43,536 nucleotides of DNA, from positions 1 to 43,536 of the forward strand of contig JAGWHU010000008.1 in assembly GCA_028866575.1 (NCBI GenBank), in the 5' to 3' direction. The first letter of the stretch is position 1; each line of letters starts with the position of its first letter. The notes under the pieces were generated by a model. It had not been told where the DNA came from. It was given only the letters and a program-made list of their open reading frames with translations, and ran no database searches. The stretch is from Candidatus Micrarchaeota archaeon (lineage in GTDB: Archaea > Micrarchaeota > Micrarchaeia > Micrarchaeales > Micrarchaeaceae). This document shows positions 28,610-43,536 of the stretch, one piece after another. The position numbers and the translations under genes are program-made.

Positions 28610-28621
28610 ATGCGGGCTAGA
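28557..28621 (+). promoter_or_regulatory. Shared surface-gene promoter/leader cassette, copy A
   Basis: The TATA box AAAGGTTTAAAT, 12 differing bases, then AAGTAATTAGAACGCGTAGA, AGGTATTAG, and the start ATGCGGGCTAGA. It matches copies B (37246) and C (39919) except for the stretch between TATA and leader. The ribosome site is AAGGT, seven bases before ATG. Confidence 0.85.
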
Positions 28622-31600
28622 TTTTGGAATGTGCTGTTGCTAATTGCCGTAATGCTAATAGTCGCAGCCACGGCGCTGCCGCACGGGCAGGCGGTCACGC
28701 TTACGCCCACAAATACAGTACTTGATTCTGGCCAGACTGAAAAGCTGATGGCTTCGCTTTCAGGCGGCACAGGGGCATTCACCGTAAACTTCTACAACGT
28801 AAGCTCGGGAACCACAAGGAATTCCCTTTCAACCCTTGCCGTTGGCTGGTCGAATTCAACCCCTTACTTCTCAAACGTGCCATACAAGGGCGTGGTGGGC
28901 GAGCCATGCGTAATGGACGCGAGCAACAACATATACTGCATAGGTGGGGACAACAATAATACTGCGTTTTACGCCCCGACCAGCAGTTCAGGCATAGGCA
29001 ACTGGATAAGCACCAACAGCTATCCATTGTTGAAATGGTCAAACGGGGGAATTGTCGGGGGCTACATGGGCTGCTCCCTGTACAGCGGCTACATATACTG
29101 CATAGGCGGCCATTTCACCGCCGCAGGCTCGGTAGGCACGAACGACGTCTATTATGCACCGGTCCTCGCTGGAGGCGGAATAGGTGCATGGTCATTCACG
29201 TCCAACTATCCTGCAAACGTTTACGACCTGTCATGCCCCACATACAACGGCTACATCTACTGCGTAGGAGGGGCCAGCACGGTGGCGAATTCCATTTACT
29301 ATGCGAGCGTAAGCGGCTCTGGCATAGGCACGTGGGCCGCGACAACGCCATACCCGGATGTGATGACATCTGGCGCCGGAACCAAGCACGGCGCAATCGA
29401 TCCTAAATGCGTGATATACAACGGCTACATCTACTGCCTTGGCGGGTTGAACGTTGATACAACTTCAAATGTGTTCTATGCACAGGTATCGTCATCCGGT
29501 GTCGGCTCTTGGTCAATTACTAGCAACTATCCTGTAACGATATACGACAACACCTGCGCCGTTTCCGGGAATTATCTTATATGCTCTGGGGGCAAGGTTA
29601 CCGGAGTGGCATCCCCGTACAGCGGGACATACTTCACGTCGCTAAGCTCAACAGGGGTAAGCGCATGGCTTCCTGCGGCAAACTACATACTCCCGTTCTA
29701 CTCTGGCGGCTGTGCGACGTCCAATTCCTTCATATATTGTGTCGGCGGCGGCAAAAACGGATTTCCTTCAGTTACGACAAATACCACATATGCGCGCGTA
29801 CTGTCCAACGGGATAATATCTGCGCCCATCGTTACAAACACGTTCGTGGTGAGCTCCCAAACAAACGGCAACACGTTCACGTACAACATCATAGCATTGG
29901 ATACCGGGACATCCACAACGTTCAACAGCATACCAAACACGATAACGGTGAACCAAAAATTGGGCACGCCAACGCTCTCAACTGTAGGCATAGCGGATGC
30001 GGGCCAGACAACAACATTCACTGCGAACCTGCCTCCTTCGCAAACAGGAACAAGCCCATACACGTATAATTACGTGTTATCGGGTTTCCTGACAACCAAT
30101 GAACTGTACAAGGGGGTATCCAGCACAACAAACACCCTTGTAGTTACAATCAACTCGCTGGTAAATGCCGCGAACGTCACTGCGAGCGTCAAGATAAACG
30201 ACAGCGCAAGCACCGCAAGCACCGCAAATTCTGTTACATCGCACACGTATGTGTATACCGCGCCAATCGCCTCGATAAGCTCCAACAACCCCTCATACAC
30301 TACGGGCCAGCAGGAAAACATCAACGTGATAATCACTAACGGCGCAGGCCCATACTCTGCAAATTTCGTATACAGCAACGGGATAGTCGCAAACACCGTG
30401 TCAAACCTTGGCCAGATATGGACTCTTGATTCGAACAGCTATCCTGGCGATATATTTTTACAAAGCTGCACGCCGCAAAACGGCTACATCTATTGCGTAG
30501 GAGGGGAAAACGGCTTCAACTCCGATTCGTCCAACAGCGTCTACTATTCGAAGGTGCAGTCCGACAATTCAGTTGGCGCGTGGTCAATTACTAGCAATTA
30601 CCCGCAGCAGCTGCAGGAGATGCCGTGCGTATCAACAAGCACAGACGTCTACTGCATAGGCGGATACAACGTATTCAATTTCTACGACGTGAACAGCGTC
30701 TACTATTCGCCGATACAGCCTGATAATTCCCTAGGCGCATGGCAGACGACGAACAGCTACCCGATGCTGATAAACGAGCAGAGCTGCATAACCTCTAACA
30801 ACTACGTATACTGCATGGCAGGGGTAAACCAGTCGACCAACTTCGTATCGTTCAACGACGTTTACTACTCGCCGATATTGTCCGACGGGTCCCTTGGAGC
30901 CTGGGCAGCAACAAACAGCTACCCAGCAAACGTTGAAGGGCTTAGCTGCGTTACCTCCAATTCCGTGGTATACTGCATTGGAGGAGACCGGTATTTCAGC
31001 TCAGACTACGGAACAAATGTGGTGGCATACGCAAACGTGCTCGGGGCAGGGGGCCTGAGCGCATGGACGATAAGCCCCAACTACTACCCGATAAACATGC
31101 CGTTCGCACCATCGTGCGTTACCAATACCGGATACATCTACTGCGCAGGTGGCGCATATTACGGTAACAGCGTAAAGCTGAACAACGCTTACTATGCAAA
31201 GATACTGGGCGGCGGCGCTGGAATGGGCGGCTGGAACGCAACTACATCGTACCCGATTCTCGGGGTTGATTCAGGAGGCCTGGACTCAACCGCAACGCAT
31301 CCGTGCGTCGCTTCAGGAAGCTACGACTACTGTGTAGGGAACGACGCAACGAACGTCATCTACCACGCGAAAATGTCGAGCTACGGGATCGCGGATCTGG
31401 CAAACTATACGTTTACAACTTCGCAAAGCTCATATACGTTTAATGCAGTGGTGACAGACACGGGAACCACAAGCCCATTCGTATTCAGCTCTCCGTCAAA
31501 CACCATAAGCTCTGGATCATCCCCTTCAGGGCCATTGACCGCAACGCCCAACCCGACATCCATAACCAACGCAACAATACCGATTGGCAAGACCTCATAC

Positions 31601-34600
31601 GCGAACACCGTAATAAGCGGGGGCACAGGATCATACAAAGGTGAATGGACATGGGTGAGCACAAATACAACGGAGCAGTACCTTGGCAAAATAAACCTAC
31701 TTCCAAGCGAGCCGGAAGACGGTGCATTGAACCCTGCAGGCACGATGCTGTACGTGCCAAATTACGCCGGCGCAGGAGTCAGCATCATAAACACTGCAAC
31801 AAACACGCTGGCCAATACAATACTTATTGGCGATTACAACGAGCCGTTCGGCATCGCTTTCGATCCTACCGGGAGCTTCGCATACCTTACAAATTCCCTG
31901 GGCGCGATAAGCGTCATTGACACATCAACAAACACAATAGTGAAGACCATACCCAATGCCTGCGGCAGCAGCCACATAATAATGAATCCTGCCGGAACAT
32001 ATGCGTATTGCATAGACGGCTCAACAATGAACGTGATAAGCCTGTCTACGAATGCCGTGACAGGTATTATTCCATTGCCGGGTGGCGCAAACAACTATTT
32101 TGCCATAAACCCCTCTGGGACGCTGTTATATGCTGTGACTTCTGGCTCGAATACCGTTGAAGTGCTAGACCTTTCGACCAACAAATTAGTAAACCACATA
32201 CAAATAGACGGGATAGGGACTACGGTAGCGGGCAATACCGGAGGAGTTGCATTCAACCCCGCAGGAACGCTGGCTTACGTAACCTCATGGTATACTGGTA
32301 CAAAGAACTACGGAAGCGCAAACGTGGTCGTGATAGACGTCGCATCCAATTCCATAGTGAATACAATAAACCTTGGCGCTGCAGGATACACCGGGGACAT
32401 AGCCATAAACCCCGCAGGTACGATGCTCTACGTGCCGCTGAACAACAACGGCACCGTGGAGGTAATGGATCTTGCCACAAACACCGTTGTGAAAAACATC
32501 CCTACCGGGGTCATAAACCCCTGGCAGATCGTAATCAATTCCGCAGGAACCGTTGGGTATGTGATAGGCGGCGCATATGGCATGAACGGGACAGTGGCTG
32601 TCATGAACCTTGTCACGAATTCGGTTGCATACACGTTCCCGACCCAAATACTGGGTGCGGATGACGTGGTATTCGGGCCTTCAGGGCAGTATGCATATGT
32701 AACAAGCAACGGGAACGACACTAGAACCGGCGCCTCGTACAAATCGCCTGGAATACTTAACATACTCGATGCATCATCAAACACCATAGCGCACCAGGTA
32801 TTTGTCAGCAACAACCCCGAGGGCGTAGCAATAAACCCCGCGGGAACGCTGGCTTACGTGATGAGCAACCCTACTTCTACCCCTTCAGCTGCAAGCACGA
32901 TAAGCGTTGTGGATCTTGGCACTAGCACGGTAATTGCAACGATAAGCACGGTTGTACAGGGAATACACGTGGAATTCACGCCTAACGGCAATCTAGCATA
33001 CGCAAGCAACGGCGTAAGGACCGACGTGATAAACGTCGCAACCAATTCCGTGATCAACTCCATAAGCACAGGAGGCGCCGTGGCATTCACCCCGGACGGC
33101 ACGTTCGGGTATACCAGCGACGGCACCGTAATAAACGTGGCCCAGAATGCGATAGTGAACACGATAAGCGGCTTCACCGGATACTATTGGGGGAGGAGCA
33201 TAGCAATAAACCCGCAAGGCACGTTCGCATATGCTGTCGGTGGCTCCGGCTCGACCAGCTACCTCAAGGTGGTGAATCTTGCGACGAATTCAATAGTAAA
33301 CACCATCTACGCGCCCGCGCTTGGCGGAACAACTCCCTGGGCCATTGCCATATCTCCATCAGGAGTATTGGGATACATAACGTATGGCGACAACGATTCG
33401 CTTGGCGTTGTGGACCTCATTACAAATACCCCAATAGGCGCTCCGATAGCGGGGCAAAGGGGCAACATAGCGTTCAACCCCAAGGGCAATTACGCTTATG
33501 TCGTGCAACTTGCAGGGGCATTCGACAACGGCGGCGTGATGATAGTGCCGGCTCCTGAAACCAACGTCCAAAGTATTCCTGCAAACGGCATGCTCTCACT
33601 GACCGTAACAGCTACATCCAGCACCAGCGTAGGATTCAACTTAGGCGGCACTAATTATGTTGACGTGCCTTCATTATCCCCCCACACGACATTCGGCAAG
33701 TACTTCATCTATGGATCCGTACAGGACACAGGGACTAATGCATTGGTAATCCAAACAACGTGCAATCTTACAATTGTTTCTACAGGAAGCGTGCAGAGCT
33801 GCGGGACCACAACTACTACAACAACCACCTCAACGACAACCACAACAACCACGTCAACAACGGCTACTACAACCACAGTGCCCGTGGTTTCAACAGGCGG
33901 CGGAGGAGGCGGAACAGGGGGCAGCTGCACGCCAACCGTGACGCAGGAGCCGAACAGCTGCGTGCTCATAACCTGCTTCACCAACCCCCAAACAGTCAGG
34001 TTCGTAATCAACGGGCAGCAGTTCAATATAACCGACAACTACATTACCTCGAATTACACTGCCGTTGTAGTGAACAATGTGTGCTACATACTCTATCCCG
34101 GGATACCGCAAACGCTGGTCAGCATGACGCTTGGAGGAAACAGCACGGCTTCGCCGTACTGCGCACCGGTATCAAGCACGCAGACTACAACGTCCGCTAC
34201 TACATCAGTTACCTACACTACAACGACATCGTCATCAACAACATCCACAACGAGCTCGTCAACAACATCCACAACCAGCACCGTATACACAACATCGTCC
34301 ACAACGCTAACAACTACATCCACATCTATACCACCGACATCCTCATCGTCCACAACATCCTCCACTACCATACTGAGCGTGTCAACGACATCCATACCGT
34401 ACAGCTACTTCACGCTTACGGCGGACAACAGCAGCAAAACACCTGCATATATTCCAGACGTTTCGCCGTTCAAGGCTTGCGCAACAATAGAAAGCCCCAA
34501 TGGCACGGTGAACCCGCCATTATGCGTTAATACGAGCAGGGGCGGCGTGACCATTCCGATGCTTCCTGGCAGCAAGCTGACGTATCTGTGCGCGACATCT

Positions 34601-37153
34601 TACGGAAAGCCAGGGTCATGGGTTGAGTGGTACCAGTGGGTTGGCTCAACGCTGAACCCAGGGGGCACTTACGCCAGGTGGTTCAACAGCTCCGCGCTTG
34701 TACCCGGATCAAACATCACCACACAAACAGGATCTACAGTAATGTTCCAATCCACGCTGGTGTCGTTCACTGCATACATACAGACGGAAACCTCCTGCTG
34801 GTTTGGACTTGAAGGCATATGCATATTCTACAACACAGTTCCGAAGCCCGCGACAAACCCGAACGCCACGATAGCAAACTGCCCGCCCACGGCAAACGGC
34901 GGCACTACAGTTTCAACGACAATCCCTGCAACCGCATCGACCACAATCCCGGTCACGGGGCAGTCCACAGTATCAACCACGGCCCAAACAACGGTACCCA
35001 CAACGCCGCAGACAACAGTAACCCCGACAACTACAATAACCCAGAAGGTCTTCACCACAGGAAACTACCTGTACTGTGTCTCGCCAATAAATGATTCCGC
35101 ACTGACATTCTACTCAACGCTGTCAAACAACGGCATAAGCAACTGGACGCAGACGACAAGCATGCCTCAATTCAAAAATGACGGAGGCCTGGAATGCTTC
35201 TCCAGCGGCACCTATCTTTACTGCATGAACGAGGGCATATACGGGTCCAACACCCTTGGAAACCCGGTGTCCTTCTACACGAATCTTACAACAACAGGGG
35301 TGGCTGGCTGGAGCTCCACAACCCCATACCCGACAAATGCAACGCTCCAGTCCTGCATAGTGCAGAACGGATACGTATACTGCGTTGGAGGATTCAGCAA
35401 CACCAATGCAGCATGCAACAACTGCGTTGATTCGCCCAAGGTGTACTACGCCAACCTATCCGGCACGGGTATAGGATCATGGGTGCGAACAACAAAATAC
35501 CCGAGAAACGTTACCGATACAACGTGCTCAACCAGCAACGGCTACATATATTGCGTAGGGGGCCTGATGGACCCGCTTGTTGGAAGCGAGCCCGGCATAA
35601 TATCCAGCCTGGCCTATTATGCTCCAATATCTTCAAGCGGAGTTGGCGCATGGGTGCGCACAACGAATTATCCTCTTAACGTATCGCTTGCGCAGTGCGG
35701 CATCAACGACAGCTACATATACTGCACCACAGGGCAGAAATTCAGCGTTTCATATTCGGCATCCTACTATGCACCGATATCCAGCTCGGGCATAGGCCAG
35801 TGGCTCCCGACTACGCGCTATCCGGTAACGCTGGAATCAGCAACGAACCTCACAAGCAAGTACTACGACCCGACGTGCTACGTAATGTTCGGATACATAT
35901 ACTGCTCGGAAAGCCCGTTGAACAAGGCATCAAACGTGAGCAGCTACTACGCCCCATTGTCAAAGGCAGGCATAGGGAAATGGATGCCGACCGCACCGTC
36001 ATATTATCCAATATACTACTCGCCAGGAAACCCAGGATTCAGGGCCTGCACGCCAGCAACAGGGAAATCGGCGATTACCGTAACTACGACAATACCATCA
36101 ACTACGTCCTCCACATCGATCGCAACTACAACCTCTGTCGCCACGACCACGTCATCCCCAACAACCTCAACAATACTGACAACATCGACACCAACGACTT
36201 CTTTGGCCACAACCACGATACAGCAGAAGACGTATAATCCAATGGGTCCTAACTTCGTTGCATTCACCCCATCAGGAAACGCGGCATATGTTACTGACCT
36301 ATACAGCAACACCGTAAGCATAATAGACGTTCAGACAAACACAGTTACTGGATACATACCTGTGGGGCTTTCGCCCGGCGGAATAGCGGTGAATCCCCAG
36401 GGCAACCTTGCGTATTCGGTTAACTTCGGAAGCGGAAATGTAAGCGTAATAGACACCGCGACAAACAAGGTTATCAAAAGCATAAACGTGGGCACGAACC
36501 CATCGAGCGTGGCATTCAGCCCTTCAGGAAAGGTAGCATACGTGCCGAACAGGGGCAGCGGCACCGTAAGCGTAATCAACGTTTCAACGAACACGGTAAC
36601 AAGCTCGATAGGCGTTGGATCTGCACCAGACTTCGTGGCATTCGACCCCTCTGGTGCCATAGCATACGTAACAAGCGGCCTTAACAGCAACGTGATCGTG
36701 ATAGACGTATCTACCGGATCAGTTCTCAAGAAGACGTACGTACCTTACGGCAATCTTGGCGCTGAGCCAGAGGGCGTGGCATTCAGCCCATCAGGCTCTT
36801 TCGCATATGTTGCGGACATGTACTCTAGCCAATTTAGCGTGATAAGCACGTCGACAGACACCGTTACAAAGACGATAAGCCTGTATCCACCTACAACTCA
36901 CTCAGAGTTCGTGGCATTCAATCCATCCGGAACCCTAGCGTATCTTACCGGCGGGGGATTCTTCGGAAACGTAACTGTAGTAAACGCAGCAACCGATGCA
37001 ATAGAATACAACATACCTGTAGGCAAATACCCCGCGGGCCTTGCATTCCATCCTTCAGGATCATTCGCCTATGTTACTAATGAGGAAAGCAACACAATCA
37101 GTGTCATAGAAGTTGCAACTGGGAAGCTTGCGAGGACCATACAGATCCAATAA
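28610..37153 (+). CDS. Giant surface protein with six beta-propellers and nested Ig-like domains
   Basis: 2847 aa. Signal peptide at residues 1-30 (WNVLLLIAVMLIVAATALP). An Ig-like domain begins at ~35 and is interrupted by a six-blade Kelch-like propeller (~75-400), then resumes (~400-450). A whole Ig-like domain follows (450-550), then a second interrupted Ig with another six-blade Kelch propeller (~600-930). Next are 14 YVTN repeats (~1025-1650; blade pattern NPAGTLAYVT..VxVIDxATNTV), enough for two seven-blade propellers. Thr-rich linkers (~1730-1765, 1857-1930, 2096-2145) separate two Cys-bearing domains. A third Kelch propeller (~2146-2483), another Thr linker and seven more YVTN repeats (~2543-2847) end the protein. 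Most Kelch blades carry a Cys pair (C..NGYIYCVGG). There are many NxS/T sites and no C-terminal anchor. Likely an adhesin or cell-contact protein; function is inferred only from architecture. Confidence 0.9.
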   Translation: MRARFWNVLLLIAVMLIVAATALPHGQAVTLTPTNTVLDSGQTEKLMASLSGGTGAFTVNFYNVSSGTTRNSLSTLAVGWSNSTPYFSNVPYKGVVGEPCVMDASNNIYCIGGDNNNTAFYAPTSSSGIGNWISTNSYPLLKWSNGGIVGGYMGCSLYSGYIYCIGGHFTAAGSVGTNDVYYAPVLAGGGIGAWSFTSNYPANVYDLSCPTYNGYIYCVGGASTVANSIYYASVSGSGIGTWAATTPYPDVMTSGAGTKHGAIDPKCVIYNGYIYCLGGLNVDTTSNVFYAQVSSSGVGSWSITSNYPVTIYDNTCAVSGNYLICSGGKVTGVASPYSGTYFTSLSSTGVSAWLPAANYILPFYSGGCATSNSFIYCVGGGKNGFPSVTTNTTYARVLSNGIISAPIVTNTFVVSSQTNGNTFTYNIIALDTGTSTTFNSIPNTITVNQKLGTPTLSTVGIADAGQTTTFTANLPPSQTGTSPYTYNYVLSGFLTTNELYKGVSSTTNTLVVTINSLVNAANVTASVKINDSASTASTANSVTSHTYVYTAPIASISSNNPSYTTGQQENINVIITNGAGPYSANFVYSNGIVANTVSNLGQIWTLDSNSYPGDIFLQSCTPQNGYIYCVGGENGFNSDSSNSVYYSKVQSDNSVGAWSITSNYPQQLQEMPCVSTSTDVYCIGGYNVFNFYDVNSVYYSPIQPDNSLGAWQTTNSYPMLINEQSCITSNNYVYCMAGVNQSTNFVSFNDVYYSPILSDGSLGAWAATNSYPANVEGLSCVTSNSVVYCIGGDRYFSSDYGTNVVAYANVLGAGGLSAWTISPNYYPINMPFAPSCVTNTGYIYCAGGAYYGNSVKLNNAYYAKILGGGAGMGGWNATTSYPILGVDSGGLDSTATHPCVASGSYDYCVGNDATNVIYHAKMSSYGIADLANYTFTTSQSSYTFNAVVTDTGTTSPFVFSSPSNTISSGSSPSGPLTATPNPTSITNATIPIGKTSYANTVISGGTGSYKGEWTWVSTNTTEQYLGKINLLPSEPEDGALNPAGTMLYVPNYAGAGVSIINTATNTLANTILIGDYNEPFGIAFDPTGSFAYLTNSLGAISVIDTSTNTIVKTIPNACGSSHIIMNPAGTYAYCIDGSTMNVISLSTNAVTGIIPLPGGANNYFAINPSGTLLYAVTSGSNTVEVLDLSTNKLVNHIQIDGIGTTVAGNTGGVAFNPAGTLAYVTSWYTGTKNYGSANVVVIDVASNSIVNTINLGAAGYTGDIAINPAGTMLYVPLNNNGTVEVMDLATNTVVKNIPTGVINPWQIVINSAGTVGYVIGGAYGMNGTVAVMNLVTNSVAYTFPTQILGADDVVFGPSGQYAYVTSNGNDTRTGASYKSPGILNILDASSNTIAHQVFVSNNPEGVAINPAGTLAYVMSNPTSTPSAASTISVVDLGTSTVIATISTVVQGIHVEFTPNGNLAYASNGVRTDVINVATNSVINSISTGGAVAFTPDGTFGYTSDGTVINVAQNAIVNTISGFTGYYWGRSIAINPQGTFAYAVGGSGSTSYLKVVNLATNSIVNTIYAPALGGTTPWAIAISPSGVLGYITYGDNDSLGVVDLITNTPIGAPIAGQRGNIAFNPKGNYAYVVQLAGAFDNGGVMIVPAPETNVQSIPANGMLSLTVTATSSTSVGFNLGGTNYVDVPSLSPHTTFGKYFIYGSVQDTGTNALVIQTTCNLTIVSTGSVQSCGTTTTTTTTSTTTTTTTSTTATTTTVPVVSTGGGGGGTGGSCTPTVTQEPNSCVLITCFTNPQTVRFVINGQQFNITDNYITSNYTAVVVNNVCYILYPGIPQTLVSMTLGGNSTASPYCAPVSSTQTTTSATTSVTYTTTTSSSTTSTTSSSTTSTTSTVYTTSSTTLTTTSTSIPPTSSSSTTSSTTILSVSTTSIPYSYFTLTADNSSKTPAYIPDVSPFKACATIESPNGTVNPPLCVNTSRGGVTIPMLPGSKLTYLCATSYGKPGSWVEWYQWVGSTLNPGGTYARWFNSSALVPGSNITTQTGSTVMFQSTLVSFTAYIQTETSCWFGLEGICIFYNTVPKPATNPNATIANCPPTANGGTTVSTTIPATASTTIPVTGQSTVSTTAQTTVPTTPQTTVTPTTTITQKVFTTGNYLYCVSPINDSALTFYSTLSNNGISNWTQTTSMPQFKNDGGLECFSSGTYLYCMNEGIYGSNTLGNPVSFYTNLTTTGVAGWSSTTPYPTNATLQSCIVQNGYVYCVGGFSNTNAACNNCVDSPKVYYANLSGTGIGSWVRTTKYPRNVTDTTCSTSNGYIYCVGGLMDPLVGSEPGIISSLAYYAPISSSGVGAWVRTTNYPLNVSLAQCGINDSYIYCTTGQKFSVSYSASYYAPISSSGIGQWLPTTRYPVTLESATNLTSKYYDPTCYVMFGYIYCSESPLNKASNVSSYYAPLSKAGIGKWMPTAPSYYPIYYSPGNPGFRACTPATGKSAITVTTTIPSTTSSTSIATTTSVATTTSSPTTSTILTTSTPTTSLATTTIQQKTYNPMGPNFVAFTPSGNAAYVTDLYSNTVSIIDVQTNTVTGYIPVGLSPGGIAVNPQGNLAYSVNFGSGNVSVIDTATNKVIKSINVGTNPSSVAFSPSGKVAYVPNRGSGTVSVINVSTNTVTSSIGVGSAPDFVAFDPSGAIAYVTSGLNSNVIVIDVSTGSVLKKTYVPYGNLGAEPEGVAFSPSGSFAYVADMYSSQFSVISTSTDTVTKTISLYPPTTHSEFVAFNPSGTLAYLTGGGFFGNVTVVNAATDAIEYNIPVGKYPAGLAFHPSGSFAYVTNEESNTISVIEVATGKLARTIQIQ

Positions 37154-37245: not shown

Positions 37246-37315
37246 AAACTAAAGGTTTAAATTAATGCCTTGCCAAGTAATTAGAACGCGTAGAAGGTAT
37301 TAGATGCGGGCTAGA
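37246..37315 (+). promoter_or_regulatory. Shared surface-gene promoter/leader cassette, copy B
   Basis: Seventy bases identical to copy C at 39919-39988, covering TATA (AAAGGTTTAAATT), leader, AAGGT ribosome site, ATG at 37304 and the next four codons. The predicted transcript start is about 25 nt before ATG. Confidence 0.9.
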
Positions 37316-39757
37316 ACGAAATTTGCATTGTCTCTAATCGTAGCTGTGGCTCTGGTGCTCCTGCTGCATAACAGCGGCGTAATAAAACTATTGCCCGCAG
37401 CCAACGCAAACTCCGGCTCGGCAAACCTCCAGCTCCAAACTTTCGATGCACCGGCAAACAACACTTATCTGTTTTGCGTAGGCGGAGGATACGGCGGGCC
37501 TACATCATATTACGCGCCTCTAACGGCAAACGGGATAGGCAACTGGAGCTCCACAACGCCCGTGCCCCAAGGATTCAACACATATGGTGGATATCTTCAG
37601 ACAACCTGCACCACCAACGGCAACTTCATATACTGCATCAACGACAGCGACTTCACCCCAAGCTCTTCCTACTATGCACAGCTTTCCACAAATGGCGGCA
37701 TAACCAACTGGCAGTCCAGTTCCCCATTCCCGTACAACGACGTTGACATACCAGGCTGCGTGCAGTACAACAACTACATGTACTGCGTGGGCAGCGGCGC
37801 CGACAGTTACGGCACGGGGGCCTCATGCGGCTTTACGTACAAGTTCGACTGCGCATTCATAAAGCAGGTCTATTATTCGCCGCTCACTTCGGGTGGGATG
37901 ACTGGCTGGAGCGCGACCACGCCATATCCAAGGGACGTATGGGGCACCGAGTGCGTTGCGGATTACGGGAACATATACTGCATAGGCGGAACCTTCGATC
38001 CTGTAGTTGTCAACAATTGCGGCTCCGGATGCCAAACTGGAGGCACGATTGTATCCAACCTTGCATATTATGCGCCCATATCAGGCTCAGGCGTCGGAAC
38101 ATGGTCCAGGACTACTAGCTATCCTATAAACGTTACGGAGAGCCTATACTGCGGCATCAACGACAGCTACGTATACTGCACCCAGGGCCAGAACATAGGG
38201 GTAACTTATACTGCATCCTACTATGCACCGATATCCTCGGGCGGAATAGGCCAATGGCTTCCCACAACAAGCTACCCCGTTAACGCGATAGGGGACGGTT
38301 GCTACATAAACGGCGGCTACATCTACTGCCTTCAAACGCCCGGAACTTTCGGAATCCAGAGCTACTATGCCCCATTGTCAAAGGCAGGAATAGGCAAATG
38401 GAAGCCGACTAACAACTATCCAGCTTCGGGCCTGATGCCTGCATGCATAGTCGCAACCCCGCAATACGTATCGACGCTTAAGGTTACCGTGACGCCTGCA
38501 AGCGCACTCATAAACAGCGGCCAGACAGCGCCTCAGTTCACGGCATTCGCAAGCGGCGGCAAACCCCCCTACTCGTATTCATGGTCTGTAGGATCAAACC
38601 TTGCGGTAGTCAGCGGCTGCACGACCGGCTCGACGACATGCACAGTATCAGGCACAAATACCGGCGCATCAGCAATATCATCGCTTGTAACCGTAACCGC
38701 AAAGGACAGCGTGCCTTCCACGGCAACGGCATCAGCAGTAGTCACGATAAATCCCCCGTTGCCACTTAAGGTGGTGATAACCCCTACTAGCGCAACCGTC
38801 AACAACGGACAGACAGCGCCTCAGTTCACAGCAACGGCATCTGGAGGAACAACCCCGTATTCGTATTCATGGTCGATAGGGTCCAACCTTACGGTAGTCA
38901 GCGGCTGCACCACAGGATCTACGACATGCACAGTATCGGGGACAAACCTGGGCACTTCGGCGATTTCCACGAAAGTCACCGTAACCGCAACCGACAGCGC
39001 ATCCCATACCGCATCCGCATCCGCAACCATAACGATAAACCCTCAGCCGCAATTGGTTGTCACGATAAGCCCGACAAGCGCGACCATCAACAGCGGCCAG
39101 ACAGCGCCGCAGTTCACAGCTACTGCAAGCGGCGGATCCCCTCCCTATTCCTATAAGTGGGTACTGGGGTCCGGCCTGGCAATAGTGAGCGGCTGCACTA
39201 CATCTTCAACTACGTGCACCGTATCAGGAACAAACATAGGCACCGCTCCGGTTTCCTCCATTTTGACCGTGACCGCAATAGACAGCGCATCGCGCACCGC
39301 ATCCGCATCTGCAACCATAAGAATAAACCAGTCAACGACAACCACCTCCACTACATCATCCACGACAACATCAACCACCTCATCCACTACCTCCTCCTCG
39401 ACATCAACATCAACCTCAATCACTACAACCACATCGGTTACCACATCCACCACCAGCACTTCAACCATAATAACTTTCACAACAACCTCAACGTCCTCGA
39501 TATACACTACATCCTATACAACAACATCCATCTGCCCGCCAGGATACACGTCAACACTGTACCCTGTAACCACAAGCGCTAACCCGACGACAGCAACGAC
39601 AACGGCATTCCCATCGCCCCAATCAACCACGTCAACCATATCCTCAACGACAAGCTCCACAACAACTTCCGTATCCATTCCTACTACAACTTCGATATCA
39701 ACTTCAACAACATCCTCAACCACAACCACCACAACAAGCACGACAACATCCATATAG
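37304..39757 (+). CDS. Surface protein: Kelch-like propeller, three Ig repeats, Ser/Thr tail
   Basis: 817 aa. Signal peptide at residues 1-36 (FALSLIVAVALVLLLH...PAANA). One six-blade Kelch-like propeller (~50-385) is closely related to the third propeller of the preceding giant protein (both have CGINDSYxYCT and ASYYAPISS). The first blade has only the second Cys (YLFCVGG), and a lone Cys closes the domain (MPACIVATP), consistent with ring closure by a disulfide. Three near-identical ~95-residue Ig-like repeats follow (~390-675, starting VTxxPTSATINSGQTAPQF), each with an internal Cys pair (SGCTTGSTTCTV). The last ~140 residues are almost only Ser and Thr, with one ICPPG motif, ending without a membrane anchor. 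Likely an O-glycosylated surface stalk protein. Confidence 0.88.
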   Translation: MRARTKFALSLIVAVALVLLLHNSGVIKLLPAANANSGSANLQLQTFDAPANNTYLFCVGGGYGGPTSYYAPLTANGIGNWSSTTPVPQGFNTYGGYLQTTCTTNGNFIYCINDSDFTPSSSYYAQLSTNGGITNWQSSSPFPYNDVDIPGCVQYNNYMYCVGSGADSYGTGASCGFTYKFDCAFIKQVYYSPLTSGGMTGWSATTPYPRDVWGTECVADYGNIYCIGGTFDPVVVNNCGSGCQTGGTIVSNLAYYAPISGSGVGTWSRTTSYPINVTESLYCGINDSYVYCTQGQNIGVTYTASYYAPISSGGIGQWLPTTSYPVNAIGDGCYINGGYIYCLQTPGTFGIQSYYAPLSKAGIGKWKPTNNYPASGLMPACIVATPQYVSTLKVTVTPASALINSGQTAPQFTAFASGGKPPYSYSWSVGSNLAVVSGCTTGSTTCTVSGTNTGASAISSLVTVTAKDSVPSTATASAVVTINPPLPLKVVITPTSATVNNGQTAPQFTATASGGTTPYSYSWSIGSNLTVVSGCTTGSTTCTVSGTNLGTSAISTKVTVTATDSASHTASASATITINPQPQLVVTISPTSATINSGQTAPQFTATASGGSPPYSYKWVLGSGLAIVSGCTTSSTTCTVSGTNIGTAPVSSILTVTAIDSASRTASASATIRINQSTTTTSTTSSTTTSTTSSTTSSSTSTSTSITTTTSVTTSTTSTSTIITFTTTSTSSIYTTSYTTTSICPPGYTSTLYPVTTSANPTTATTTAFPSPQSTTSTISSTTSSTTTSVSIPTTTSISTSTTSSTTTTTTSTTTSI
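38477..39330 (+). repeat. Three tandem Ig-like repeats within the 817-aa protein
   Basis: Units begin at about 38477, 38765 and 39053, each ~288 bp. Nucleotide similarity is high, with shared runs such as GGCCAGACAGCGCC and CAGTTCAC, indicating recent duplication or gene conversion. Confidence 0.85.
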
Positions 39758-39918: not shown

Positions 39919-39988
39919 AAACTAAAGGTTTAAATTAATGCCTTGCCAAGTAATTAGAACGCGTAGAAGGTATTAGATGCGGGCTAGA
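39919..39988 (+). promoter_or_regulatory. Shared surface-gene promoter/leader cassette, copy C
   Basis: Identical over 70 bp to copy B; similarity continues into the signal peptide (CTAATCGTAGCT then TGGCTCT in both). ATG is at 39977. Confidence 0.9.
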
Positions 39989-42900
39989 TTGTGGAATGTA
40001 GCGTTGCTAATCGTAGCTATGGCTCTAGCGGCACCACTGATCGCATCGCATATATACTCCGCATCTGCTACTCCGATAATCAACAATCCTGCGATGGTGG
40101 GAGCATCAGGATCTTCGGTACACAGGATAAACTCCTCCTTCTTCGGCATGAGCATAAACGGCGCTAATCCCCCATACAGCAACATAGGAACTCTGGGGAA
40201 GCAACCAGGGCTCAACTGGTACTACAGGGAGCCAAGCAAGAACGTTTACTCTTGGAGCGCAATGGACCAGCAGGTAGTGCAGGCGGAAAGCGCAAACGAA
40301 ACGATAATCGGTTACATAGACGGCCCGCCGCAATGGGCATCATCGCAGCCCAATTCCGCATGCCCCGGAGGCATAACCGGATACTGCTATCCTCCAAATA
40401 TGACCGATTACGTTAATTACCTAACAAATATGAGCACGCGCTACAGGGGCAAGATAAAATACTACGTAATCTGGATAGAGCCGGACAACAAGGCGAAGTG
40501 GAACGGCAGCGTGTCGCAGATGGTAAACATAACAAAGTCAGCATACGATACAATAAAGCTAAACGATCCCAGTGCTCAGATCATAATGCCTGCAGTTTCC
40601 GGATCCGGCGGAGTGCCTTACTTCCAGTCCTGCGGCAGATTCTGCTGGCTTTACTCATTCCTGCAGGCAGGCGGCGGCAAGTACATCGATGCGATATCCT
40701 TCCACGGGTATCTGGATAACTGCTCGTACTCGTATGAGCAGGTTCCGTGCTCGTATGGCCTAGGTTGTAGCGACGCGATTACCTGCGCAGGGCAGCCGCT
40801 AATAACCCAGATAAGCGACATACTTTCATACGAGAACAAATTCGGGATAAACAAGCCGATAATAGACGAGGAAGGCGGATGGGGCATAAACAAGGAGCTT
40901 TCCAACCCCAAGCTTGAGGCAGCATACATATCGCGATGGTACATAATTCAGGCAAGCGCCGGGGTGCGGACAGCCGTATGGTATTTCTGGAACCCGCAGA
41001 ACGCCAATACTAGCTGGGACTACGGGAGCAACGTGTCAGAGGCCCTGCCCCTTCAGGCTTACAAGCAGACTTACAAATGGCTTGTAGGGTCTACGATGAC
41101 CGGCACATGCTCCTTGTCCGCATCGCTATGGTCATGTCCAATGAGCCTAGGTTCCGGGCAGAATGCGCTTATCCTGTTTGCTAATTCCAACTCCTCCTCA
41201 AAAACATATTCCGTTCCAAGCGGCTATACTGCAATCCAGTATCTCAACGGGACGTCATCAAGTGTAAGCCCGGGCAGCCAGATAACTGTAACATACGCGC
41301 CTGTGGTTCTTGCCGCATCGTCAACCGCATTCGGCACACAACAGGCGAAACAGACAATTCAGTCATCAACCGCATCAACTACAGTTACCAGCACTGTTAC
41401 GATAGCTGCCACAACCGGCTCAAACATACTGTACAACATACAGGTAACGGGGATACTCTACACCCCGATACAGAAGTCGGTTTCCATACTCATATGCCCG
41501 ATATCAACTACGGGCTCAACTACCACAACAACAATACCTGGTGGAATATGCCTGCCTACATCAACATCCACTTCATCAACCACATCTACAACGTCATCCA
41601 CCACTACGACGATATGTCCTAATGGCATAGCATGCAGGCCTACGACTACAACAGCCTCATCCACATCCACGTCAACCACGACAATACCAACTACGTCCAT
41701 ATGCCCGACAGGGACCATATGCGTATCGTCAAGCACATCAACTACCAGCACAACAACAATATCGTCTACGTCACTTACCACAACAACCATATGCCCGTCA
41801 GGATTCAGCTGCACCCCATCAAGCACCTCAACATCCACAACCACAAGCTCAACAGCAACCACCACATCCACGATCTGCCCGCCGGGCATAACCTGCAACC
41901 CATCAACTACATCCACATCGTCCACAACATCAACCACAAGCACGTCCACCACTACAACAATCTGCCCGTCAGGGTTCAGCTGCACGCCGTCAAGCACCTC
42001 AACCACTGCAACAACGACCTCCATATGTCCGTCAGGGTTCTCATGCATATCAACATCCTATTCCACAACAACCATATGCCCGACAGGGTTCACCTGCACC
42101 CCATCAAGCACCTCAACATCCACGACCGGATCGACAACATCAAGCACTACTACGACAATATGTCCGAAGGGAAGCGCATGCAACTCCACGTCAACCACAT
42201 CATCCTCAACAACATCATCAACTACAACCATACCTACATCGTCCATCTGCCCGACAGGGACCACGTGCACCACATCCTCAACATCAACAACAACCACAAC
42301 GATACCCACGACTACCTCGCTCACAACCACGACAATCTGCCCGTCAGGATTCACATGCACGCCTTCAACCACATCCACATCCTCGACATCCTCATCCACC
42401 TCAATAACTACTACAACAATATGTCCAACAGGGCTCACATGCCTGCCATCATCCACAACCACATTATCAACTACGTCATCCACCACATCAATACCCACAA
42501 CGTCCATCTGCCCAATAGGGACCACGTGCACCACATCCTCGACAAGCACCTTATCGACCACATCATCCTCTACCTCATCACTATCCACATCAACCTCAAC
42601 CAGTTCCACGTCGCTGACGACGCTCCCATCCACAACCACGATCTGCTTGTTCGAGAACGAACTGTCGGAAGGGTGCTCGCTATCCAGCACAACGATATCA
42701 TACACAACCACGACAATCTGCCCGTCAGGATTCACATGCAACCCGTCATCCACATCCACTTCAACGGTTCCAACCACGTCAACCACATCGACCATATGTC
42801 CTTCAGGAACAACATGCGCCCCGACAACATCCACAACAACAGTCCAGACTACGACAACCGTGCCAACTACGTCCATCTGCCCGGCCAACTTCAACTGCAT

Positions 42901-43536
42901 ATCCTCAACCACAATACCCTCCACATCCACGTCAGTGAGTACAACATCCTACACAACAACCACGATCTGCCCAACGGGCAGCACATGCAACCCATCCACA
43001 ACATCCACCTCATCATCATCAACGGCGCCAACCACGGCAACAACCACAATCTGCCCGGCAGGATTCACATGCCTGCCAACTACATCATCAACCACAACCA
43101 CTACGTCCACAACCTCAACACCCACGACATCCATCTGCCCATCAGGAACCACATGCATACCATCAACAACGATCCCGGCAACCACAACCATACCAACAAC
43201 AACATCCTACACCACCACAACGATCTGCCCGTCAGGGTTCATATGCACGCCATCAACCACTACAACTTCATCAACAACATCAACGCTCTCAACAACAACC
43301 ACGATATGCCCAACAGGATTCACATGCAACCCGTCAACCACCTCAACAATACCAATTACGTACACGACAACGACAATACCGACAACATCCATCTGCCCGC
43401 AGGGCACTACATGCCTGCCATCCACTACATCCACTTCCATACCTACGACCTCGACTGTGCCCACAACTACAACAATATGTCCTTCAGGCAGCAGCTGCAA
43501 CCCATCCTCAACCTCATCCACGACGTCCGTGACATC
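39977..43536 (+). CDS. Clan GH-A-like glycosidase with long Cys-repeat stalk, 3' end missing
   Basis: At least 1186 codons with no stop before the window ends. Signal peptide at residues 1-30 (WNVALLIVAMALAAPLIAS). The catalytic domain spans ~35-450 and resembles clan GH-A TIM barrels such as GH39/GH5. Acid/base candidate Glu168 lies in YYVIWIEPDNK (usual form WNEP, here Ile replaces Asn). His243 lies in ISFHGY, and the nucleophile candidate is Glu298/299 in KPIIDEEGGWG. A small beta domain follows (~370-455). From ~residue 490 onward a stalk alternates Ser/Thr runs with at least 22 ICPxGxxC units and one variant. Probably a cell-surface glycoside hydrolase displayed on an O-glycosylated, disulfide-knotted stalk. 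The substrate is unknown, and the Asn loss makes activity less certain. Confidence 0.85.
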   Translation, partial: MRARLWNVALLIVAMALAAPLIASHIYSASATPIINNPAMVGASGSSVHRINSSFFGMSINGANPPYSNIGTLGKQPGLNWYYREPSKNVYSWSAMDQQVVQAESANETIIGYIDGPPQWASSQPNSACPGGITGYCYPPNMTDYVNYLTNMSTRYRGKIKYYVIWIEPDNKAKWNGSVSQMVNITKSAYDTIKLNDPSAQIIMPAVSGSGGVPYFQSCGRFCWLYSFLQAGGGKYIDAISFHGYLDNCSYSYEQVPCSYGLGCSDAITCAGQPLITQISDILSYENKFGINKPIIDEEGGWGINKELSNPKLEAAYISRWYIIQASAGVRTAVWYFWNPQNANTSWDYGSNVSEALPLQAYKQTYKWLVGSTMTGTCSLSASLWSCPMSLGSGQNALILFANSNSSSKTYSVPSGYTAIQYLNGTSSSVSPGSQITVTYAPVVLAASSTAFGTQQAKQTIQSSTASTTVTSTVTIAATTGSNILYNIQVTGILYTPIQKSVSILICPISTTGSTTTTTIPGGICLPTSTSTSSTTSTTSSTTTTICPNGIACRPTTTTASSTSTSTTTIPTTSICPTGTICVSSSTSTTSTTTISSTSLTTTTICPSGFSCTPSSTSTSTTTSSTATTTSTICPPGITCNPSTTSTSSTTSTTSTSTTTTICPSGFSCTPSSTSTTATTTSICPSGFSCISTSYSTTTICPTGFTCTPSSTSTSTTGSTTSSTTTTICPKGSACNSTSTTSSSTTSSTTTIPTSSICPTGTTCTTSSTSTTTTTIPTTTSLTTTTICPSGFTCTPSTTSTSSTSSSTSITTTTICPTGLTCLPSSTTTLSTTSSTTSIPTTSICPIGTTCTTSSTSTLSTTSSSTSSLSTSTSTSSTSLTTLPSTTTICLFENELSEGCSLSSTTISYTTTTICPSGFTCNPSSTSTSTVPTTSTTSTICPSGTTCAPTTSTTTVQTTTTVPTTSICPANFNCISSTTIPSTSTSVSTTSYTTTTICPTGSTCNPSTTSTSSSSTAPTTATTTICPAGFTCLPTTSSTTTTTSTTSTPTTSICPSGTTCIPSTTIPATTTIPTTTSYTTTTICPSGFICTPSTTTTSSTTSTLSTTTTICPTGFTCNPSTTSTIPITYTTTTIPTTSICPQGTTCLPSTTSTSIPTTSTVPTTTTICPSGSSCNPSSTSSTTSVT
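41612..43493 (+). repeat. Array of ICPxGxxC units in Ser/Thr linkers
   Basis: At least 22 units of eight residues (ICPSGFTC, ICPTGTTC and similar) separated by 10-30 Ser/Thr-rich residues, plus one variant with a longer Cys loop (ICLFENELSEGC, about 42650). Linkers are rich in ACA/ACC/TCA/TCC codons. Spacing is irregular, so it is a protein repeat, not a nucleotide-level tandem array. It continues beyond the window. Confidence 0.9.

Follow-up and report, generated by a model that had tools for sequence, protein, structure and literature searches.

The giant open reading frame at 28610-37153 on the + strand of the window (the whole 43,536-nucleotide stretch that was analysed), which has an ATG start, is open over its whole length and specifies 2847 amino acids, probably encodes a secreted surface protein in which three propeller units are carried in the C-E loops of Ig-like domains, with permuted Kelch rings, cysteine-stapled blades and a likely adhesion or binding role (a probability of roughly 0.7 is attached to this reading). 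Ig-like domains would alternate with beta-propellers from the N-terminus of the predicted cell-surface protein, and at three places the Ig loop that links strands C and E would house a propeller unit, with the halves of the host, one on each side of the ring, expected to fold together around its stem. In a permuted Kelch ring the chain would enter on the outer strand d and leave on the neighbouring strand c and, these being adjacent, the side-by-side ends that an insertion requires would be provided. The cysteine pair of each blade would staple strand a to strand b, and two chain connections would hold each ring to the stalk. The proposed layout, with one neighbour, is as follows.

28610..28693, + strand: signal peptide or N-terminal anchor, residues 1-28 (hydrophobic start, MRARFWNVLLLIAVMLIVAATALPHGQA)
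28691..28813, + strand: Ig-like domain 1, N-terminal half, residues 28-68 (contiguous-Ig profile 7-64, E 2e-14; alignment)
28835..29818, + strand: Kelch-like ring 1, six blades, nested, d-first/c-last, residues 76-403 (blade HMM, AF2, Foldseek)
29819..29959, + strand: Ig-like domain 1, C-terminal half, residues 404-450 (profile 63-110 of 111, E 3e-10)
29966..30265, + strand: uninterrupted Ig-like domain, residues 453-552 (full-length profile match, E 4.5e-17 and 1e-15 in two runs)
30263..30385, + strand: Ig-like domain 3, N-terminal half, residues 552-592 (profile 3-54, E 5e-9)
30413..31393, + strand: Kelch-like ring 2, six blades, nested, d-first/c-last, residues 602-928 (blade HMM; Pfam Kelch_1, E 1.4e-6)
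31397..31513, + strand: Ig-like domain 3, C-terminal half, residues 930-968 (profile 63-107 of 111, E 3e-7)
31532..31663, + strand: QW-subtype Ig-like domain, N-terminal half, residues 975-1018 (profile 2-46, E 5e-12)
31676..33553, + strand: 14 YVTN repeats plus a leading d strand, nested in the QW Ig, residues 1023-1648 (TIGR02276)
33566..33769, + strand: QW-subtype Ig-like domain, C-terminal half, residues 1653-1720 (profile E 2e-3, clean run)
33806..35038, + strand: Ser/Thr-rich linkers with Cys-containing segments between them, residues 1733-2143 (sequence)
35054..36064, + strand: Kelch-like ring 3, six blades, free, b-first/a-last, residues 2149-2485 (blade HMM)
36242..37150, + strand: C-terminal YVTN ring, 7 repeats, free, residues 2545-2847 (repeat matches)
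37304..39757, + strand: neighbouring secreted protein, with free Kelch ring R45, then three contiguous Ig domains and a Ser/Thr tail

The repeat counts of the earlier, sequence-only reading stand, with three six-blade Kelch-like rings (six matches to a blade HMM in each of rings 1, 2 and 3) and YVTN repeats numbering 14 at residues 1039-1648 and 7 at residues 2550-2846, the latter family being identified by above-cut-off matches to the NCBIfam YVTN repeat, TIGR02276. With Pfam, ring 1 exceeds the cut-off of Kelch_6 (28.8 versus 25.3 bits) and ring 2 that of Kelch_1 (28.1 versus 20.1 bits); ring 3 is below the cut-offs of both. A Foldseek search with the model of ring 1 has as its top matches six-bladed Kelch designs (SAKe6) and the Kelch domains of KLHL proteins, with E about 1e-12. 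The suggestion that the rings are displayed on a rigid rod is not supported: residues 28-1720 are without a long linker, yet the later domains are separated by Ser/Thr-rich linkers. The Cys-containing segments that lie between these linkers are exemplified by VRFVINGQQFNITDNY and WYQWVGSTLNPGGTYARW. Downstream of the giant frame are two more secreted-looking open reading frames, the listed neighbour and one at 39977-43534, the third of the cluster, that specifies a Ser/Thr-rich stalk with repeated CPxGxxC motifs and is without a match in Pfam or NCBIfam at the thresholds applied.

Central to the proposal are Ig profiles trained without any ring-adjacent sequences and without the giant protein itself (the clean run). 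They match a first half before, and a second half after, each of Kelch rings 1 and 2, as had been read from the sequence by eye, and the joined flanks outscore either half alone (E 2e-24 for unit 1 and 1e-11 for unit 2). An addition to what had been noticed earlier is a third interrupted Ig-like domain, here of the QW subtype, which is divided by the 14 YVTN repeats and whose C-terminal half is recognised with E 2e-3 in the clean run and with 7e-15 and 2.3e-6 in other runs; the last value is from a profile search of the genome that places QW Ig matches on both sides of the YVTN stretch. The insert is in each case flanked by complementary halves of one host domain, the arrangement by which domain insertion is recognised. 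The intact Ig-like domain has no Pfam match, and against PDB profiles it has weak matches, the best (E 0.011) being to a decoration protein. At the level of sequence comparison, the homology of the halves can be regarded as established, as can the constant position of the insert in general Ig hosts and the permutation dealt with below.

Structure modelling with AF2 gives a confident Kelch ring, the ring blocks being mostly at pLDDT 75-93. In a first model, from an alignment without contiguous-Ig rows, the Ig halves were at pLDDT 30-50. A second model, for which such rows were included, places strands A, A', B, C and C' before the ring and E, F and G after it, with the strands of the Ig halves at a moderate pLDDT of about 60-76. 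Its alignment was restricted to nested units and contiguous Ig domains because mixed alignments of free rings and contiguous Ig domains misplaced the Ig halves, and its Ig rows favour the nested answer; the second model supports nesting, short of being decisive. We infer, with moderate support from the modelling, that the halves of each host Ig would fold together around the ring.

The suggestion that the plan is general in this genome is borne out for the source genome (archaeal, 1.13 Mb in 53 contigs) and for its order, though not by the example originally offered: in the GH18 frame at 2-940 the Ig domain that precedes the enzyme domain is uninterrupted (profile 38-102), and its one cut is made by the start of the contig. 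About 35 ring insertions, in three host domain types, are found across the source genome and relatives. Kelch rings occupy general Ig hosts (R0, R1, R7-R10, R13, R14, R17 and R18), GLP-type hosts (R3, R11 and R15) and QW-Ig hosts (R52 and R53), and three further nested Kelch rings come from newly fetched genomes; YVTN rings are mostly in QW Ig, with R61 in a general Ig. In the clean run R3, R11 and R52 each lack one half call, R67 is cut by a contig start, and the GLP cases rest mainly on other runs, the GLP profile having kept one training sequence after clean-up. At loci L024, L027 and L028 Kelch rings split a non-Ig domain with the motif FxExGLPxGTxWxVxY, and later rings there are free and b-first. 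In general-Ig hosts the first half stops near profile position 35-70 and the second starts near 49-76, of 111, and since these boundaries fall in one region the insertion site is constant in that host type. In QW hosts the break falls in the equivalent region, from C to E; for the site in the GLP-type host there are three or four cases only, with a thin profile. When species genomes of bacteria and archaea were scanned, all confirmed relatives of the giant frame came from Candidatus Micrarchaeota, and the Kelch-ring family is present in 81 of the 295 genomes of a phylum sample, the matches listed all being in the window's own order. When viral contigs were scanned, neither the nested units nor the Ig alignment had a confirmed relative; YVTN relatives were found. 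Two IMG/VR viral contigs (L119 and L120) have N-terminal YVTN rings followed by domains that are PKD-like by eye.

Nested and free Kelch rings are closed differently. Free rings mostly run b-c-d, then five times a-b-c-d, then a; nested rings run d, five times a-b-c-d, then a-b-c. With classes read by eye, seven rings left out as uncertain or truncated and counts that are partly dependent (rings of one protein being related), all 15 nested rings are d-first and c-last and 30 of 32 intact free rings are b-first and a-last (Fisher p 2e-10). An HMM-based parse has 14/14 nested rings of the first set d-first, its end calls including one 'd' and one 'a', and at the new loci 3/3 nested rings are d-first and 11/11 intact free rings b-first. 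To judge from these sequence parses, circular permutation goes with the nesting of Kelch rings. Nested YVTN rings, too, have a d-like strand first and c last, and the giant protein's C-terminal free ring runs from a to d. The ring tree does not support nesting that arose once and was never lost: the nested label requires seven changes on it, of which well-supported branches force at least two.

The cysteines of the Kelch blades are regularly spaced, with pairs in ring 1 at 100/110, 155/164, 209/218, 267/276, 316/325 and 368/377, in ring 2 from 620/629 to 899/908 and in ring 3 from 2196/2205 to 2423/2432. A pair is present in 268/268 scored blades, a count biased by the training of the blade HMM on Cys-paired blades. 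The two cysteines of a pair face each other, in the first AF2 model, across hairpins with two-residue turns, a placement that would suit cross-strand disulfides. Free rings are closed by a lone Cys, and R41 is without both its first-b Cys and its closing Cys, as would be expected if those two pair. The source genome encodes a VKOR-family protein, which is compatible with disulfide formation; a Thioredoxin_4 match is absent from it.

The 14 YVTN repeats are likely two separate seven-blade rings, with no seven-repeat periodicity being seen. Another genome has, at L081 (L081_p2_766), a QW Ig domain that contains 14 YVTN repeats (residues 96-678), and there, as in the giant protein, a single unpaired d starts the stretch and a c ends it. 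A tentative, and on balance doubtful, extension is a Micrarchaeota plug-in rule by which various propeller families would be accommodated at one Ig loop with their ends at the d/c edge and, in the giant protein and L081, a seven-blade YVTN ring would itself be nested within a YVTN ring nested in an Ig. The ring-within-ring part comes from strand counting only: one leading d, 13 complete repeats and a last repeat without its d.

How else might the flanks of the rings be accounted for? If the layout were sequential, the halves would be remnants of decayed Ig domains, or short beta modules in their own right, and the rings ordinary tandem domains. The low confidence of the Ig halves in the first AF2 model fits this, and relatives have real examples of such an order, such as the rings between complete Ig domains at L049. 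It is nevertheless quite unlikely for the units considered here, given that the paired halves complement each other and every general-Ig host is broken in the same region, that two more host types are also split, and that the termini of nested and free rings differ. Far less probable still is a compositional artefact in which Thr/Ser/Val-rich surface sequence lets Ig profiles match anything near a ring. The flanks are indeed Thr/Ser-rich, and there are some weak matches beside free rings. However, all ten contiguous Ig domains aligned to nested units split around ring 1 and none of 100 shuffled copies did so, free Kelch rings are without a complementary pair of half matches, and the halves are in the right order with strong E-values when ring-adjacent training domains are removed.

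A different type of alternative accepts the nesting and questions the role, with the rings being enzymes, lactonase- or mutarotase-like, instead of binding modules. An above-cut-off match to the lactonase-type propeller PF10282 and a weak one to N-acetylneuraminate epimerase point in that direction, but the lactonase and YVTN matches are repeat-level and several curated enzyme models are far below their cut-offs, making this reading improbable. For the nested surface protein the most likely, though putative, role is that of an adhesin or binding protein for a partner cell or surface. The hydrophobic N-terminus, the Ser/Thr-rich linkers and the published Micrarchaeota surface proteins that have PKD, Kelch and YVTN domains (PMC5498576) suggest it.

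The giant protein's YVTN repeats have a sequence relative in the Methanosarcina surface-layer protein 1L0Q (E 5e-49), and its Kelch ring has the six-blade fold in common with KLHL/KEAP1 Kelch domains and the SAKe6 designs; unlike these and 1L0Q, its nested rings start with strand d. None of the propellers of 1L0Q, KLHL/KEAP1 and SAKe6 is known to sit inside an Ig domain. Other proteins do have nested Ig domains, and others nested propellers. In the integrin beta hybrid domain an I-like domain is inserted in an Ig-like domain whose halves flank it, the insert being an alpha/beta domain as opposed to the propeller of the giant protein. Prolyl oligopeptidase and DPP-IV have a beta-propeller inserted within another domain, with the host there being an alpha/beta hydrolase and the protein an enzyme. 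Searches of open-access literature yielded no account of the ring permutation or of propellers set into Ig domains in this way. Closest in content are the surface-layer proteins of the micrarchaeon Mia14, where, like the giant protein a secreted Micrarchaeota combination, PKD-type domains are combined with Kelch and YVTN propellers and a CARDB-like module is also described (PMC5498576). The Kelch, YVTN and PKD-type content of Micrarchaeota surface proteins is already reported there; its passages on domain content do not mention nesting, permutation or Cys pairs, all features of the giant protein's family.

What is suggested for these organisms is a reusable device for fixing binding rings to a stalk at the surface. 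It would come with a sequence-testable rule, by which the closure of a propeller is linked to its attachment, that spans the Kelch family and YVTN rings as well as several host domains. The units may also serve as a natural template for putting propellers into other scaffolds, and they provide a concrete surface architecture for testing in DPANN archaea.
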